64,000 nt of DNA from a virus. The DNA lies in the IMG/VR virus record IMGVR_UViG_3300010373_000047, positions 1-64,000 of that record; one strand, 5' to 3'. How positions within the stretch are numbered: position 1 is the stretch's first letter; the number at the start of each line of letters is the position of its first letter. The notes beneath the pieces were generated by a model, which ran no database searches, had not been told where the DNA came from, and was given only the letters and a program-made list of their open reading frames with translations. A program made the translations under genes and the position numbers. This document shows, piece by piece, positions 34,935 to 41,685 of the stretch.

Positions 34935-36056
34935 TTATTCCGGCTTGGCTGCCGGAAACGGCATCGTGATTAGTGTAAAACCTGGGTGTGCTGGCGTCGT
35001 AATGCGCGCAGGCGTAGTCGGTCCGGTTAGCTCGATATCGGCAATCGTTTCGGGCTCGAACAGCGCGAGCGCGCCCCGAATATGATCGAGGTTATATTGC
35101 GCCCATTCATCAGCCGAGGAATTGATTGTGATGGCATCTTCGGGCGAAGCATGAACCGTCTCGTCGTAATCCGGCTCGTTAACCTGGCCCACTAATAGAC
35201 GCAACGAGCCCTGGGCGACCTTGATCCACACTTGCGGCTCGTTCGGACGTGCGAGAGACGCACGCATAAAATAGCGCCCTAATTTGCCCGCAGGACCGCT
35301 GATGATAGATGTCGGTTGTTGGAACGCGGGGTGGTTGACGATTGGGTGGTATTGCGGATATTCGCCCTCGAGTACAGGACATTGAACCTTGACGCCCGTT
35401 GTGTGTAGCCGGAACATTCGCGCCGTTGACGCGACAGAGACGGATGCGCCTTCCTCTCGCTTGGCGATAATCTTCGTCAGCGCGAGTGCCGCTTTAACCG
35501 GCATCACGACAGGGGTTGGCATTTTCGCCGGAATCATTTGCTCGAGTAGCCGCTTGCCGTCTGTGCCGACTACGTGGAGCGTTTCGTTGTCTCCACCTGG
35601 CAACAACCCGACGCCCGCAATGATGCGCGCCCCGTTCTTTTCGCACGCAGGAGCGGCCCACGTCAGCGCTTGTGAGAACACGTCGGGCGACAACAGCTCG
35701 ACCATATCATCCGTGCCGATCTCTAGCCGAGGAAAAGCGTTAGGGTCGATAGTGGGAAAACGGTATTTCGATTTTCCGATACGGACCTCGAGCATGAAAT
35801 CGTTGATCGAGTTGATCTCGATGCTTGGCGCATCGCTCGCCTGCGCTACCGCACGCAGCCGCTTCATGTCGATCACAGCTTCGCCTGGTTCGTCGACCTT
35901 ACAAATCGTCGACGCTGATATCGCGACGTTGTCGTCTCGGCACTGAAGGTCGGCACCGCCATCTGTTACGGCGCTCAACAATCCCTCGTCTTTGTCGGCG
36001 ATCTTGATTAGTTCAATCGCCTCGGCAAGCAGCCCACGATCAAAGGTGATCTTCAT
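34935..36056 (-). CDS. dnaN: DNA polymerase III beta-type sliding clamp
   Basis: 373 residues from ATG 36056, the usual clamp length. Three repeated alpha/beta domains: KITFDRGLLAEAIELI, central VFSQALTWAAPACEKNGAR with LHVVGTDGKRLLEQ (the D-G-x-R-L of clamps) and a final domain ending TLITMPF. Role: ring tethering the replicative polymerase to DNA. A phage-encoded clamp with no phage polymerase suggests reprogramming of host Pol III; the DnaE-tail protein at 19 kb has a clamp-binding motif and may be its partner. Confidence 0.8.
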   Translation of the reverse strand: MKITFDRGLLAEAIELIKIADKDEGLLSAVTDGGADLQCRDDNVAISASTICKVDEPGEAVIDMKRLRAVAQASDAPSIEINSINDFMLEVRIGKSKYRFPTIDPNAFPRLEIGTDDMVELLSPDVFSQALTWAAPACEKNGARIIAGVGLLPGGDNETLHVVGTDGKRLLEQMIPAKMPTPVVMPVKAALALTKIIAKREEGASVSVASTARMFRLHTTGVKVQCPVLEGEYPQYHPIVNHPAFQQPTSIISGPAGKLGRYFMRASLARPNEPQVWIKVAQGSLRLLVGQVNEPDYDETVHASPEDAITINSSADEWAQYNLDHIRGALALFEPETIADIELTGPTTPARITTPAHPGFTLITMPFPAAKPE

Positions 36057-38089: not shown

Positions 38090-39391
38090 TTACGTTGACA
38101 AGAAGCTAGCGCACGGCCCGTAGAATGTCAAATTTACCACTCCTGTTTCGCCGTCGCGCTGTTTGGCAATAATTACCTCGGCTGTGTCTTTGGCTTTCGG
38201 GTTATAGAATTTCGGTCGATATAACAACAGAACCAGGTCGCCGTCCTGCTCGATTTGACCAGAGTCGCGTAAATCCGACAACGTCGGACGAGGTTCGTTG
38301 CGCTCCTCGCATTTGCGGCTGAGCTGCGCAAGCGCAAACATGGCGACGCGCATGTCTTTCGCGATATTTGTTAACGCGATGCTGACTCCGGCCACCTCCT
38401 GTTCGCGATTTTCGTTTCGCTTGCCGGTAACGCCTCGCATTTTTTGCAGATAATCCACGATGATTAAATCCAATCCGCCAGCCTCGCGCGCTATACGCAT
38501 CGCCGAAGCCTTGAGCGTAACCGGATTGACTGTTTCGTCGTGGATATAGATCGGTAAATCGGCAAACGCTTGTGATGCCTCTTTAATGCGTTCGATCTCC
38601 TCCGTGGTGTATGGAGGTGCGTCAGTACCGCGCCGCGACCGAACCTTGGCGCGCGAGCATATCGCGCGAACCGTCAACGCCTGAGCCGTCATTTCGAGGC
38701 TGAATATCGCAACCTTGGCCCCTTTGTCTGCGGCGTTGTTCGCGATATTGAGCGCAAGCGCTGTCTTTCCCATTCCTGGGCGAGCGCCGAGAATCGTCGT
38801 CGTTTGCGGATGCAAGCCTCCCGTGATGGCATCGAGCCGCGCGAACCCTGTAGGCACCCCGACGGTTCCGTCACCGCTCAGCATCCTATCGGCCGTCGCG
38901 CCCGCGATATCGCCTACTTTGACGTGCGCCCGACGGACGTCGCGATGGAATATCTCAGCCAGCTCGCGTTCCGCCTCGGAGCAGATTTCGGCCGTCGCTG
39001 GGATCGGTAGCGCAAGCGCTCTTGTGCGGTATTTCTCCATCGCAGCCGCCATCGCGCGGAGCACAGCCTTGTCGCGGATTTCCGTAACGTACATATCGAG
39101 GTGCTCGATTTGCGCACCCATCATGCACGCCGTCAAATACGAGCGCAGCGCATTCTCGCTGTTGATAAATTTTCCTTTCGCAAGCAGGCGGTCCGCGAGG
39201 ATACCTTCGTCGATTGCCTCGGATTTCATGTCGGGAGCGAGCGCTAACAATTCGGCATACACGGCTCGGGATGCCGGTTGGTAAAAATCGCTAGGCTCGA
39301 GCGCCGCCTGGATCGGATAAATCAAATCAGCTCTTTTGAGCACGCATCCGATCAATCGATCCTCTTGGTGGGTTGCTGCCGGTTCTTTCAT
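38090..39391 (-). CDS. dnaB: Replicative DNA helicase (DnaB family)
   Basis: 433 residues. N-terminal helical domain (1-100), linker, RecA core with Walker A GARPGMGKT (202-210), FSLEMTAQALTVR, LIIVDYLQKM, ALAQLSR and DLRDSGQIEQDGD: all DnaB signatures. Role: hexameric 5'-3' helicase at the fork. It directly follows the O-like gene, as initiator and helicase (O-P or O-DnaB) pairs do in lambdoid phages. Confidence 0.9.
   Translation of the reverse strand: MKEPAATHQEDRLIGCVLKRADLIYPIQAALEPSDFYQPASRAVYAELLALAPDMKSEAIDEGILADRLLAKGKFINSENALRSYLTACMMGAQIEHLDMYVTEIRDKAVLRAMAAAMEKYRTRALALPIPATAEICSEAERELAEIFHRDVRRAHVKVGDIAGATADRMLSGDGTVGVPTGFARLDAITGGLHPQTTTILGARPGMGKTALALNIANNAADKGAKVAIFSLEMTAQALTVRAICSRAKVRSRRGTDAPPYTTEEIERIKEASQAFADLPIYIHDETVNPVTLKASAMRIAREAGGLDLIIVDYLQKMRGVTGKRNENREQEVAGVSIALTNIAKDMRVAMFALAQLSRKCEERNEPRPTLSDLRDSGQIEQDGDLVLLLYRPKFYNPKAKDTAEVIIAKQRDGETGVVNLTFYGPCASFLST
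38103..38131 (-). promoter_or_regulatory. Promoter N inside the 3' end of the helicase gene
   Basis: TTGACA (38131-38126), 17-bp spacer, TAGCTT (38108-38103); shares GCGCTAGCTT with promoter M. Confidence 0.5.
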
Positions 39392-40155
39392 CGGACGTTA
39401 GTTTTCATCACTTTCTCAACGGCCTCGGCAAGCACCGGATCGAGCTCGCCAGAATCGTAATCGTTAAGGTCGCGATAGACGGGCGCAGGCTGTTTGACGC
39501 GAGCGGCGGGCTTGTTCCATTGCGCATACTTGCGCACCCACGTATGCCAAGCCAAACCCCAATCTTTCATCAGCGATCCTCGCCCCTCGTGGTGTTCTCG
39601 GAACCCATCGAACTGGTCGTCGATTGCAGACTCTGGCATTCCACGGTCGAGCGCGAACTGTCGCAGCTTGTCGTCGAGTTTGAACGAATCCGGCAGCGAG
39701 TGTCGTTGGCGTGGGCGCGTTGCGCGCACCACAGGTTCTATTGACGGATCACATAACGGATCACATAACGGATCTCCGGCACCGTGTGCCGGAGGGAGCG
39801 GCACCGTGTGCCGGAGGTCCTGGCACGTCGTGCCGGAGGGAGCGGCACCGTGTGCCGGAGGGAGCGGCACCGTGTGCCGGAGGGTTAGCATATACACGAG
39901 CTGATACACATCGCTAGAGCGTGCACCGCTTGCGGTAAAGCGGTCTTGTCGTCGAATCAACCCAAGCTCCTCGAGGACGGCGAGCTGCTTCCGCACACCG
40001 CGCTCGGACTGCGACGATATATCGCTGATCGTTTTTTGGCTTGGCCACGCATACCCCTGGTCGTTTGCGTAGTTCGCCAAAGCGATCAAAGTCAGTTTGG
40101 TTTGGGCGCTCAGGCCAGTAAGCTTGAACGCCCCTGAAATCGCTTCGATGCTCAA
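39388..40155 (-). CDS. O-like replication initiator with embedded iterons
   Basis: 255 residues from TTG 40155, overlapping the ParB-MTase stop (TTGA). N-terminal ~85 residues form a winged helix (TLIALANYANDQGYAWPSQK, ISSQSERGVRKQLAVLEELG); a Pro/His-rich linker (LRHTVPLPPAHGA twice) is encoded by five 22-bp DNA repeats; the C-terminal half is helical with Trp-rich WGLAWHTWVRKYAQW. Winged-helix N-terminus, iterons in the middle of the gene and a DnaB gene next door are the lambda O arrangement. Role: binds the origin and loads the helicase. Confidence 0.75.
   Translation of the reverse strand: MSIEAISGAFKLTGLSAQTKLTLIALANYANDQGYAWPSQKTISDISSQSERGVRKQLAVLEELGLIRRQDRFTASGARSSDVYQLVYMLTLRHTVPLPPAHGAAPSGTTCQDLRHTVPLPPAHGAGDPLCDPLCDPSIEPVVRATRPRQRHSLPDSFKLDDKLRQFALDRGMPESAIDDQFDGFREHHEGRGSLMKDWGLAWHTWVRKYAQWNKPAARVKQPAPVYRDLNDYDSGELDPVLAEAVEKVMKTNVR
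39744..39774. repeat. 12-bp tandem repeats beside the iterons
   Basis: ACGGATCACATA repeated 2.6 times directly next to the iterons, inside the O-like gene (encodes D-P-L-C repeats). Less GC-rich than its surroundings; could be the unwinding side of the origin. Confidence 0.6.
39778..39887. repeat. Five 22-bp iterons, probable replication origin
   Basis: GGCACCGTGTGCC begins at 39778, 39800, 39844 and 39866, and a variant GGCACGTCGTGCC at 39822: exactly 22 bp apart, each followed by GGAGG. Each core is an imperfect palindrome. Because 22 is not a multiple of 3, the reading frame rotates through the repeats, so selection is on DNA, not on protein. Place inside the initiator gene is as in lambda. 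Confidence 0.82.
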
Positions 40156-41351
40156 AACGGAATCTCCTCGGTCGGTTCGGTTTTCGGTGCTTCTAAACCC
40201 CACGCAACCCACCCCGCCCGCGCCCGTCGAGCAAATAGCTCGATCTTCGGCACGTCCGGATACATACGCTCGAGAATGTCGTATATCTCGTCGGGCTTGC
40301 GCGAATGCTCGCGTCGTGGCGCATTCACCACGGATGATACCCGATTCTCGGGCAGTGGGGTAATAGGAGCGCCTCGCGAACCCACAAGTAAAACCTCGTG
40401 CTGTGCGCGAAAATAGTATCCTGGCCCGATGCTGGGCTTGACCCAAATCGCTTGCGAGCGGTACGAAAATCCCCAACGGTTCAGGATGCCAATCGCCTCC
40501 TCGACCTTCGCGGGCGGGCACCACAGGAACAGCATCGCGTCCTCGGTTAGAACGTTCTTGACTGGCAGCGCCCCGATGGCGTCGAGGGTCATCGTCGGAT
40601 ACTGATTTTCGACGTCTCGCGAATCCGATACAGGATGTTCGTATTGCCACGGCGGATCGGCGAGCACAAGCGCGAATTTCGCGCCCTGAAACTCCATCGT
40701 CGGGGTGCCTTCGTCAATCAGCTTGCCGATGCGCTTACGGAACCGCGCTGCATCAGCCGCCCGACGAATTTCCTTGGTGTTGCCTGCCGCCACCGTCGCC
40801 TGTTCGGGTTGCGGCAAATCAAGCAGGTGGTAGGCTTGCCCGACCTTGCACTTACCAGATTCGATTGCCGCCACCAGCGCCGGATCGCCATCGCGGAGAA
40901 CAGCCGCCGCCTGGTCGACTGTTGCGCGACCGACGGCGAAATCGTCGGCTGCTTGTTTACTGAGTCGCCCAACGACTTTTTTCGGTAACGCCTCGCCGTT
41001 CGGCCCCGCGATCTCCTGGGCATAAAACGGCTTGGCTCGCGCCGCCGCGAGCGCTCGTTGCGATTCGTTCAGGTGGCGTCGGTAGAAGTTGACGCTCAGC
41101 ACGAAATCTACAAGCGATCCGTTGCCGTCCCAAAACCGAACCGGCACGGGTTCGATGCCGAGCTCTTGCGCCGCGCGATAGCGGTGTCGGCCGTCGATGA
41201 TTTGGTCGTTGTATAGCCAAATCGGCTCGCGGATTCCATGATCTTTGATGTCGCGCTTAAGCTCTTGGAAGTCCGCCTCCGGCATCACAGGAAGGATGCC
41301 GGTAACTGGGTGGCACTCGAAAGGCACCTGTCGTGGTTCGATTGTGATCAT
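40152..41351 (-). CDS. ParB-like domain fused to MT-A70 adenine methyltransferase
   Basis: 399 residues. N-terminal ParB/Srx-type part (LKRDIKDHGIREPIWLYNDQ, IDGRHRYRAAQELG, LNESQRALAAA; about 25-160). The C-terminal half is an MT-A70 (Ime4/M.MunI-like) methyltransferase with catalytic DPPW in ALVLADPPWQYEH (~233) and FARRARAGWVAWG near the end. Role: N6-adenine methylation of phage DNA; the ParB part may guide binding. First gene of the leftward replication operon; its start codon abuts a palindrome over the promoter. Confidence 0.82.
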   Translation of the reverse strand: MITIEPRQVPFECHPVTGILPVMPEADFQELKRDIKDHGIREPIWLYNDQIIDGRHRYRAAQELGIEPVPVRFWDGNGSLVDFVLSVNFYRRHLNESQRALAAARAKPFYAQEIAGPNGEALPKKVVGRLSKQAADDFAVGRATVDQAAAVLRDGDPALVAAIESGKCKVGQAYHLLDLPQPEQATVAAGNTKEIRRAADAARFRKRIGKLIDEGTPTMEFQGAKFALVLADPPWQYEHPVSDSRDVENQYPTMTLDAIGALPVKNVLTEDAMLFLWCPPAKVEEAIGILNRWGFSYRSQAIWVKPSIGPGYYFRAQHEVLLVGSRGAPITPLPENRVSSVVNAPRREHSRKPDEIYDILERMYPDVPKIELFARRARAGWVAWGLEAPKTEPTEEIPF

Positions 41352-41397
41352 AGGTGTCTATTATTAGACACCTCCTCGAAAACGTCAAAATTTGACT
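41352..41397. promoter_or_regulatory. Divergent control region with 9-bp palindrome
   Basis: Back-to-back -35 boxes: TTGACG on minus (41388-41383) and TTGACT on plus (41392-41397). The minus -10 is AATAAT/TAATAG within 41365-41358, inside the perfect palindrome AGGTGTCTA/TAGACACCT (41352-41373). The palindrome covers the -10 box, predicted start site and lies against ATG 41351. The plus -10 (AATCCT, near 41416) is weak. This is the main switch between leftward replication and rightward recombination genes. Confidence 0.65.
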
Positions 41398-41436
41398 TTG
41401 TGGATCGGACTACGCAATCCTATTCGAGGTGACGCG

Positions 41437-41685
41437 ATGGCAAAAAATACGACGAACCACAAAGAGTGCATTGTCGATGGTTGCCATCGTTCGCGCCGCG
41501 CGTTGGTTCCGAGCCGTGGTTACGTTATCAGCAAACACCACGATTTGTGCCGCCAGCATTTCCAAAGCGCCCTGTTATCAATTCGGGCGAATTTGATGCG
41601 TGGACAAGCTACCGAAAGACGCTCTGTCGATCTGGGACCAGCTATGCGCCCGTGGGTATTGGGTAGTCACGGGCGATATTTTTGA
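41437..41685 (+). CDS. 82-aa Cys/His-rich protein
   Basis: ATG 41437 with GAGGT upstream. Conserved-looking first half: CIVDGCHRSRRALVP, then HHDLCRQHF, a likely zinc site. The C-terminal ~30 residues overlap the region upstream of ERF in another frame and look less convincing, so the true end may be affected by a sequence error. Confidence 0.52.
   Translation: MAKNTTNHKECIVDGCHRSRRALVPSRGYVISKHHDLCRQHFQSALLSIRANLMRGQATERRSVDLGPAMRPWVLGSHGRYF

Follow-up and report, generated by a model that had tools for sequence, protein, structure and literature searches.

The DNA analysed here (the window, 64,000 bases) comes from a virus record of 64,272 bases. Its reverse strand encodes at 39388-40155 an O-like replication initiator of 255 amino acids plus stop, with a TTG start, in which an N-terminal HTH_36 domain is followed by a linker and a C-terminal domain (Pfam, PHROG). 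Residues 13-67 match Pfam HTH_36 (9.7e-14), and the best PHROG families, 1032 (3.8e-22) and 391 (O-like, 4e-17), are annotated as replication initiation protein or O-like, in agreement with the initial annotation, which had proposed an O-like initiator with an N-terminal winged helix. The TTG start is supported by the invariance of the M-S start among relatives. A single-sequence AlphaFold prediction reached a pLDDT of 41, too poor to use. The end of the initiator gene is overlapped by the start of a gene for a DnaB-type replicative helicase (38090-39391, reverse strand; Pfam DnaB_C 7.5e-81, DnaB N-domain 2e-9). Its upstream neighbour in the same operon, outside the origin, encodes a fusion of a ParB_N-like domain and an MT-A70 adenine methyltransferase (40152-41351, reverse strand; Pfam MT-A70 3.3e-31; ParB_N 2.4e-5, slightly below the Pfam cutoff). 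A DUF1064/resolvase-like protein is also encoded further down the operon, and an Erf annealing protein, a YqaJ exonuclease and an SSB are encoded divergently (Pfam/PHROG), so that the gene set around the initiator is a phage replication-recombination module. In addition, a beta-clamp-like DNA polymerase III protein is encoded in the replication operon at 34935-36053 (Pfam DNA_pol3_beta_2 1e-7, PHROG 947 2e-29). Between the replication operon, which runs leftward, and the Erf/YqaJ/SSB operon, which runs rightward, lies a divergent control region (41351-41600). A sigma-70-like promoter candidate for the leftward operon lies at 41360-41388 (reverse strand), matching the consensus at only 10 of 12 positions, and chance alone would give about one site of this quality in the region; if real, it would transcribe the origin.

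Within the linker-coding part of the initiator gene, at 0.35-0.50 of its length, five iteron cores (no strand assigned) start exactly at 39778, 39800, 39822, 39844 and 39866, with a spacing of 22 bp throughout, and all of these starts, as well as the single variant copy, proved to be as first described. The cores occupy 39778-39790 (iteron 1, GGCACCGTGTGCC), 39800-39812 (iteron 2), 39822-39834 (iteron 3, the variant GGCACGTCGTGCC), 39844-39856 (iteron 4) and 39866-39878 (iteron 5). The pattern GGCACNNNGTGCC has five matches in the 64-kb window, every one inside the array, compared with a mean of 0.08 and a maximum of 1 in dinucleotide shuffles. TRF places the array at 39777-39884 (22 bp x 4.9, score 172) and the adjacent 12-bp repeats at 39744-39774 (12 bp x 2.6, score 62, 100% identical), and these two have the highest tandem-array scores within the window. 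The 22-bp unit reads GGCAC-nnn-GTGCC-GGAGG-nnnn. Palindromic cores had been claimed as well, and the arms measure 6 bp in all five copies and reach 9 bp in the iteron nearest the 12-mers, where 39774-39794 forms a 21-bp palindrome with a 3-bp centre. In variant copy 3, the GGCAC/GTGCC arms are intact, and only one spacer and the centre, where GTC replaces CGT, are changed. A CRISPR array was considered for this tandem structure and rejected, with the repeats lying inside a coding gene, the 9-bp spacers being of constant type, and no cas gene occurring in the annotated part.

The protein holds only one 12-residue repeat (RHTVPLPPAHGA, present twice, 22 codons apart), against five copies in the DNA. 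Synonymous shuffling, in which codons were exchanged among positions of the same amino acid so that protein and codon usage were kept, gave best self-match scores of at most 19 in 400 trials, whereas the actual gene scores 44 at lag 22. The protein therefore does not explain the array, and the earlier argument that a 22-bp period, being out of frame, points to selection on the DNA holds, since such shuffling cannot recreate the array.

Abutting iteron 1 on the downstream (dnaB) side is a probable DNA unwinding element (39727-39774, reverse strand), which in gene sense comprises GATCCGTTATGT, GATCCGTTATGT, GATCCGTCAATA and GAACCTGTG, with GAWCC steps exactly 12 bp apart; this assignment draws on tandem repetition, low stability and a motif of the initiator family. 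Stability around the array is lowest at 39733-39769, and 98.7% of the window is more stable than this stretch. The A+T content of the element is only about 57% over 40 bp, weaker than the A+T-rich tract of lambda.

Homologues of the initiator are numerous and distant: tblastn retrieves 90 phages with an E cutoff of 1e-5 and 311 when it is relaxed to 0.01, none of them reaching 60% identity. Protein searches with the initiator, DnaB, methyltransferase and beta clamp recovered no close relatives, and a sequence search with the exact iteron DNA found no match elsewhere. Of 23 O-like genes from phages or prophages, lambda O among them, 19 have their strongest internal repeat in the linker, at about 0.3-0.5 of the gene length, with P<=0.05 in the comparison with synonymous shuffles. 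Among the exceptions, a Salmonella Lederbergvirus and KS9 are without strong repeats in the linker, the downstream 12-bp motif gives the best repeat in SfV (P 0.0075), and ZF40 has P 0.10. The idea that relatives might keep the peptide and lose the DNA spacing is contradicted at the level of the family only, where the repeats keep their position, frequently show dyad symmetry and often have a spacing of 21-24 or 43-46 bp, while iteron sequence and peptide both change. Genes with more similar N-terminal domains also have more similar iterons (r 0.49, partial 0.48, permutation P 0.002), and no such relation holds for the C-terminal part (partial r 0.035). This correlation would fit recognition of the iterons by the N-terminal domain, a reading weakened by linkage and by poor alignment of the C-terminal part. 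As a separate observation, a CACCCC/GGGGTG half-site is over-represented in several O-like linkers (43 versus 12.5 expected under synonymous shuffling; loci L004, L006-L009, L013, L020, L026, L029 and others), hinting at a common ancestral iteron half-site; it is absent from the window and was thus set aside as evidence.

Downstream of the compared arrays, the DNA shows a common short repeat, GAACC(A/G)TCA, which takes the form GATCCGTTATGT in the window, AACCACCAAAG in JBD68 (in three frames), GAACCACCAG in a faecal phage (in two frames), GAACCGTCCTT in an Arthrobacter phage, AACCATCA in Microcystis and Bifidobacterium phages, and GAACCAGTCAAT in enteric phages. A protein-blind scan of 2.9 million viral contigs for GAACCATCA-N2..4-GAACCATCA returned at least 120 stretches, motif-match totals being lower bounds both here and in the genome scan. 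Among the 80 matches listed, 67 sit in O-like ORFs, as judged by an HMM built from O-like N-termini, and all are on the sense strand, while a control scan with a permuted motif yielded 32 stretches, none of which (0/32) lies within an O-like gene. Removal of redundancy left 51 motif genes, or 52 when one fetched by the window-type pattern is added. In the 51 genes, successive motif copies are 11 bp (52 cases), 12 bp (36), 10 bp (10) or 13 bp (5) apart, and they occupy at least two reading frames in 41, indicating that the DNA is conserved rather than an EPS peptide. Linker repeats are found upstream at P<0.05 in 49 of the 52 motif-fetched genes, with lag 22 the commonest. In the set collected by homology only, the motif is significant (P<0.05, in the expected place) in 7 of 28 genes, the window included, in a test in which the longer GAACCAGTCA form of the enteric phages scores poorly; the motif is thus widespread, not universal. 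The window itself counts as a divergent member of the motif group, with three GATCCGTYA sites and GAACC at 12-bp steps, and its 12-mers fit the family motif at P=0.005 against synonymous shuffles, which is the floor of the test. The window-type pattern GATCCGTYATNTGATCCGTYAT occurs in two IMG/VR contigs. One is O-like by HMM, and the protein encoded downstream in the other is very similar, but its ORF is without an HMM match; the two look related and were therefore counted as one independent case. The 12-mers are more than incidental neighbours of the iterons, since they look like an unwinding element and belong to a motif carried by many members of the family.

Collectively, the O-like HTH initiator, selection at the DNA level, the palindromic cores, an easily melted neighbour and similarly placed repeats in most of the distant relatives support the initial proposal of a replication origin, and we consider it very likely (probability of roughly 0.86) that 39727-39884 is the origin of a dsDNA tailed phage, located in the linker of its own initiator gene, where the initiator would bind the palindromes, the 12-mers would open and the phage DnaB would be loaded. 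Taking lambda as the model, we infer that binding, melting, helicase loading and the start of replication all occur here. The N-terminal winged-helix domain may bind each GGCACNNNGTGCC palindrome, probably as a dimer, and five sites spaced by 22 bp (about two helical turns) would share one face of the helix, allowing an O-some-like complex to form. Strain from this complex could then open the GATCCGTTATGT repeats, which adjoin the array towards dnaB with a 12-bp phase, and the initiator's C-terminal part might recruit the phage's own DnaB, encoded immediately downstream. Cumulative GC skew, proposed earlier as a check, was uninformative: the curve has no clear minimum or maximum at the array and tracks gene orientation.

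Tandem palindromes are a typical feature of operators and parS, and the upstream gene has a ParB-like N domain, so the array could belong to another protein, such as the ParB_N/MT-A70 protein or a repressor, and lie in the initiator gene by coincidence. We regard this as very unlikely: no promoter-like site was found at the array, ParB_N domains in methyltransferase fusions are not known to bind parS, repeats occur at the same position in phages with different annotated neighbours, and the type of repeat tracks the initiator's own N-terminal domain. Even less likely is an origin of the repeats as a functionless by-product of a proline-rich linker. The linker is of low complexity, slippage generates tandem repeats, and one 12-residue peptide is indeed repeated, but slippage would have to account for a period out of frame that synonymous shuffles never approach in score, for arms that are perfect while centre and spacer vary, and for the different, often palindromic repeats that most of the distant phages carry at the same place.

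We give still less weight to an origin of the iteron-plasmid type (Rep_3/RepC-like and DnaA-dependent), which would make the element a phage-plasmid replicon rather than a lytic origin. Direct tandem iterons with a spacing of about two turns, a weak, sub-threshold RP-C match of the initiator and the repeats upstream of homologues on Azospirillum megaplasmids would suit such a replicon. However, no DnaA box (TTWTNCACA) occurs anywhere in the window, and the initiator is an HTH_36 protein whose best families are phage O-like, with RP-C below the cutoff and a phage dnaB next to it. Finally, mRNA hairpins acting in translation, stability or attenuation can be practically dismissed: the predicted fold is stronger than in shuffles (z -4.1), but palindromic repeats yield such a fold automatically, hairpins need neither exact 22-bp phasing nor a phased neighbouring motif, the equivalent iterons of lambda act as DNA, and no Rfam family matched within the window.

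Iterons inside initiator genes are already known from lambda O, P22 18 and phage L 18 (PMC8022706), and the window locus, read as an origin, is thus a further case of a known type. In lambda, O dimers bind to iterons built as inverted repeats, and an adjacent A+T-rich segment melts (PMC5043065, PMC7466680). The lambda origin in gene O resembles the window locus in its mid-gene inverted-repeat iterons about 20-24 bp apart, its initiator with an N-terminal DNA-binding domain and its easily melted segment downstream of the iterons. In lambda O, for which the iterons are annotated, the linker repeat has P=0.01 and the least stable DNA lies downstream of the iterons, as in the window. The iteron sequence differs, however, and the melted segment of lambda is plainly A+T-rich, without the GAACCRTCA motif. 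The lambda O-P plan initially assigned to the locus needs correction: lambda P is a helicase loader, whereas a DnaB helicase and not a P-like loader comes next here, which makes P22 18-12 the right comparison. In P22 (18/12) and phage L (18), an initiator gene with internal iterons is likewise followed by a DnaB-type helicase gene, and each of these phages has its own iteron sequence (PMC8022706). The annotated rep_origin of P22 lies within gene 18. P22 differs from the window in its iterons and melted segment, its origin, like that of lambda, is without the GAACCRTCA array, and the comparison drawn here is one of layout. The unwinding elements of P1 oriR, E. coli oriC and RK2 are short tandem repeats, some with GATC, beside initiator sites, but these systems have other initiators, and the window is without DnaA boxes. 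As a side observation, GATC is commoner in the window than expected (352 versus 241), each 12-mer contains GATC, and an MT-A70 adenine methyltransferase gene lies nearby.

The O-like genes of Pseudomonas phage JBD68 and Arthrobacter phage PhluffyCoco share with the window 22-bp linker repeats followed by phased GAACC(A/G) repeats, but have other iteron sequences and only about 30-38% protein identity over the matched part; we know of no experimental origin studies of either gene. The shared GAACCRTCA element seems to be new and recurs at the same place in dozens of very different phages. No description of it was found in the open-access literature searched, where the string matches listed are unrelated papers, and its novelty is provisional because the search covered open-access papers only. 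On balance, we lean slightly towards the view that HTH_36 phage initiators from several bacterial phyla share a sequence-specific origin-opening array, in which GAACC(A/G)TCA, phased at 11-12 bp and fixed in orientation, would immediately follow iterons that are otherwise unrelated and offer initiator or helicase a strand-specific landing site, making it a phage counterpart of the bacterial DnaA-trio and not a generic A+T-rich stretch. The origin would be placed to about 160 bp in a phage without close relatives among the collections searched, and the location of origins inside initiator genes is indicated to be common among HTH_36 phage initiators. The iteron sequence co-varies with the DNA-binding domain, and the putative opening element is nearly constant in many such initiators. 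With the GAACCRTCA signature, phage origins can be found from a DNA pattern only, and the question of what HTH_36 initiators recognise when the DNA opens becomes testable.

In viral contigs, the GAACCATCA tandem marks O-like initiator genes (IMG/VR loci L030-L109). In the scan of genome contigs, 10 of the 80 matches listed are O-like, and several others are EPS-repeat proteins; the low O-like share is as expected, since most of this DNA is not prophage, and the EPS-repeat matches indicate that the motif, taken by itself, has specificity in viral DNA only. The genome loci that combine the tandem GAACCATCA with an O-like gene (L188, L202, L204, L207, L211, L216, L231, L234, L248 and L256) come from Actinobacteria (Mycetocola), Betaproteobacteria, Pseudomonas, Campylobacteraceae and others. 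On Azospirillum megaplasmids, the gene for an HTH_36 O-like homologue contains no repeats itself, but the intergenic region upstream of it is filled with about 5-10 copies of a 19-21-bp repeat (CGCGGGCTATCGCTCCAT, also in inverse form), often at a spacing of 21 bp. These repeats face a divergent gene for a 'plasmid replication protein' (L012:1500-2360, L014:1500-2350, L015:1650-2410, L016:1550-2500), and a phage-type initiator may here have been domesticated as a megaplasmid replicon.
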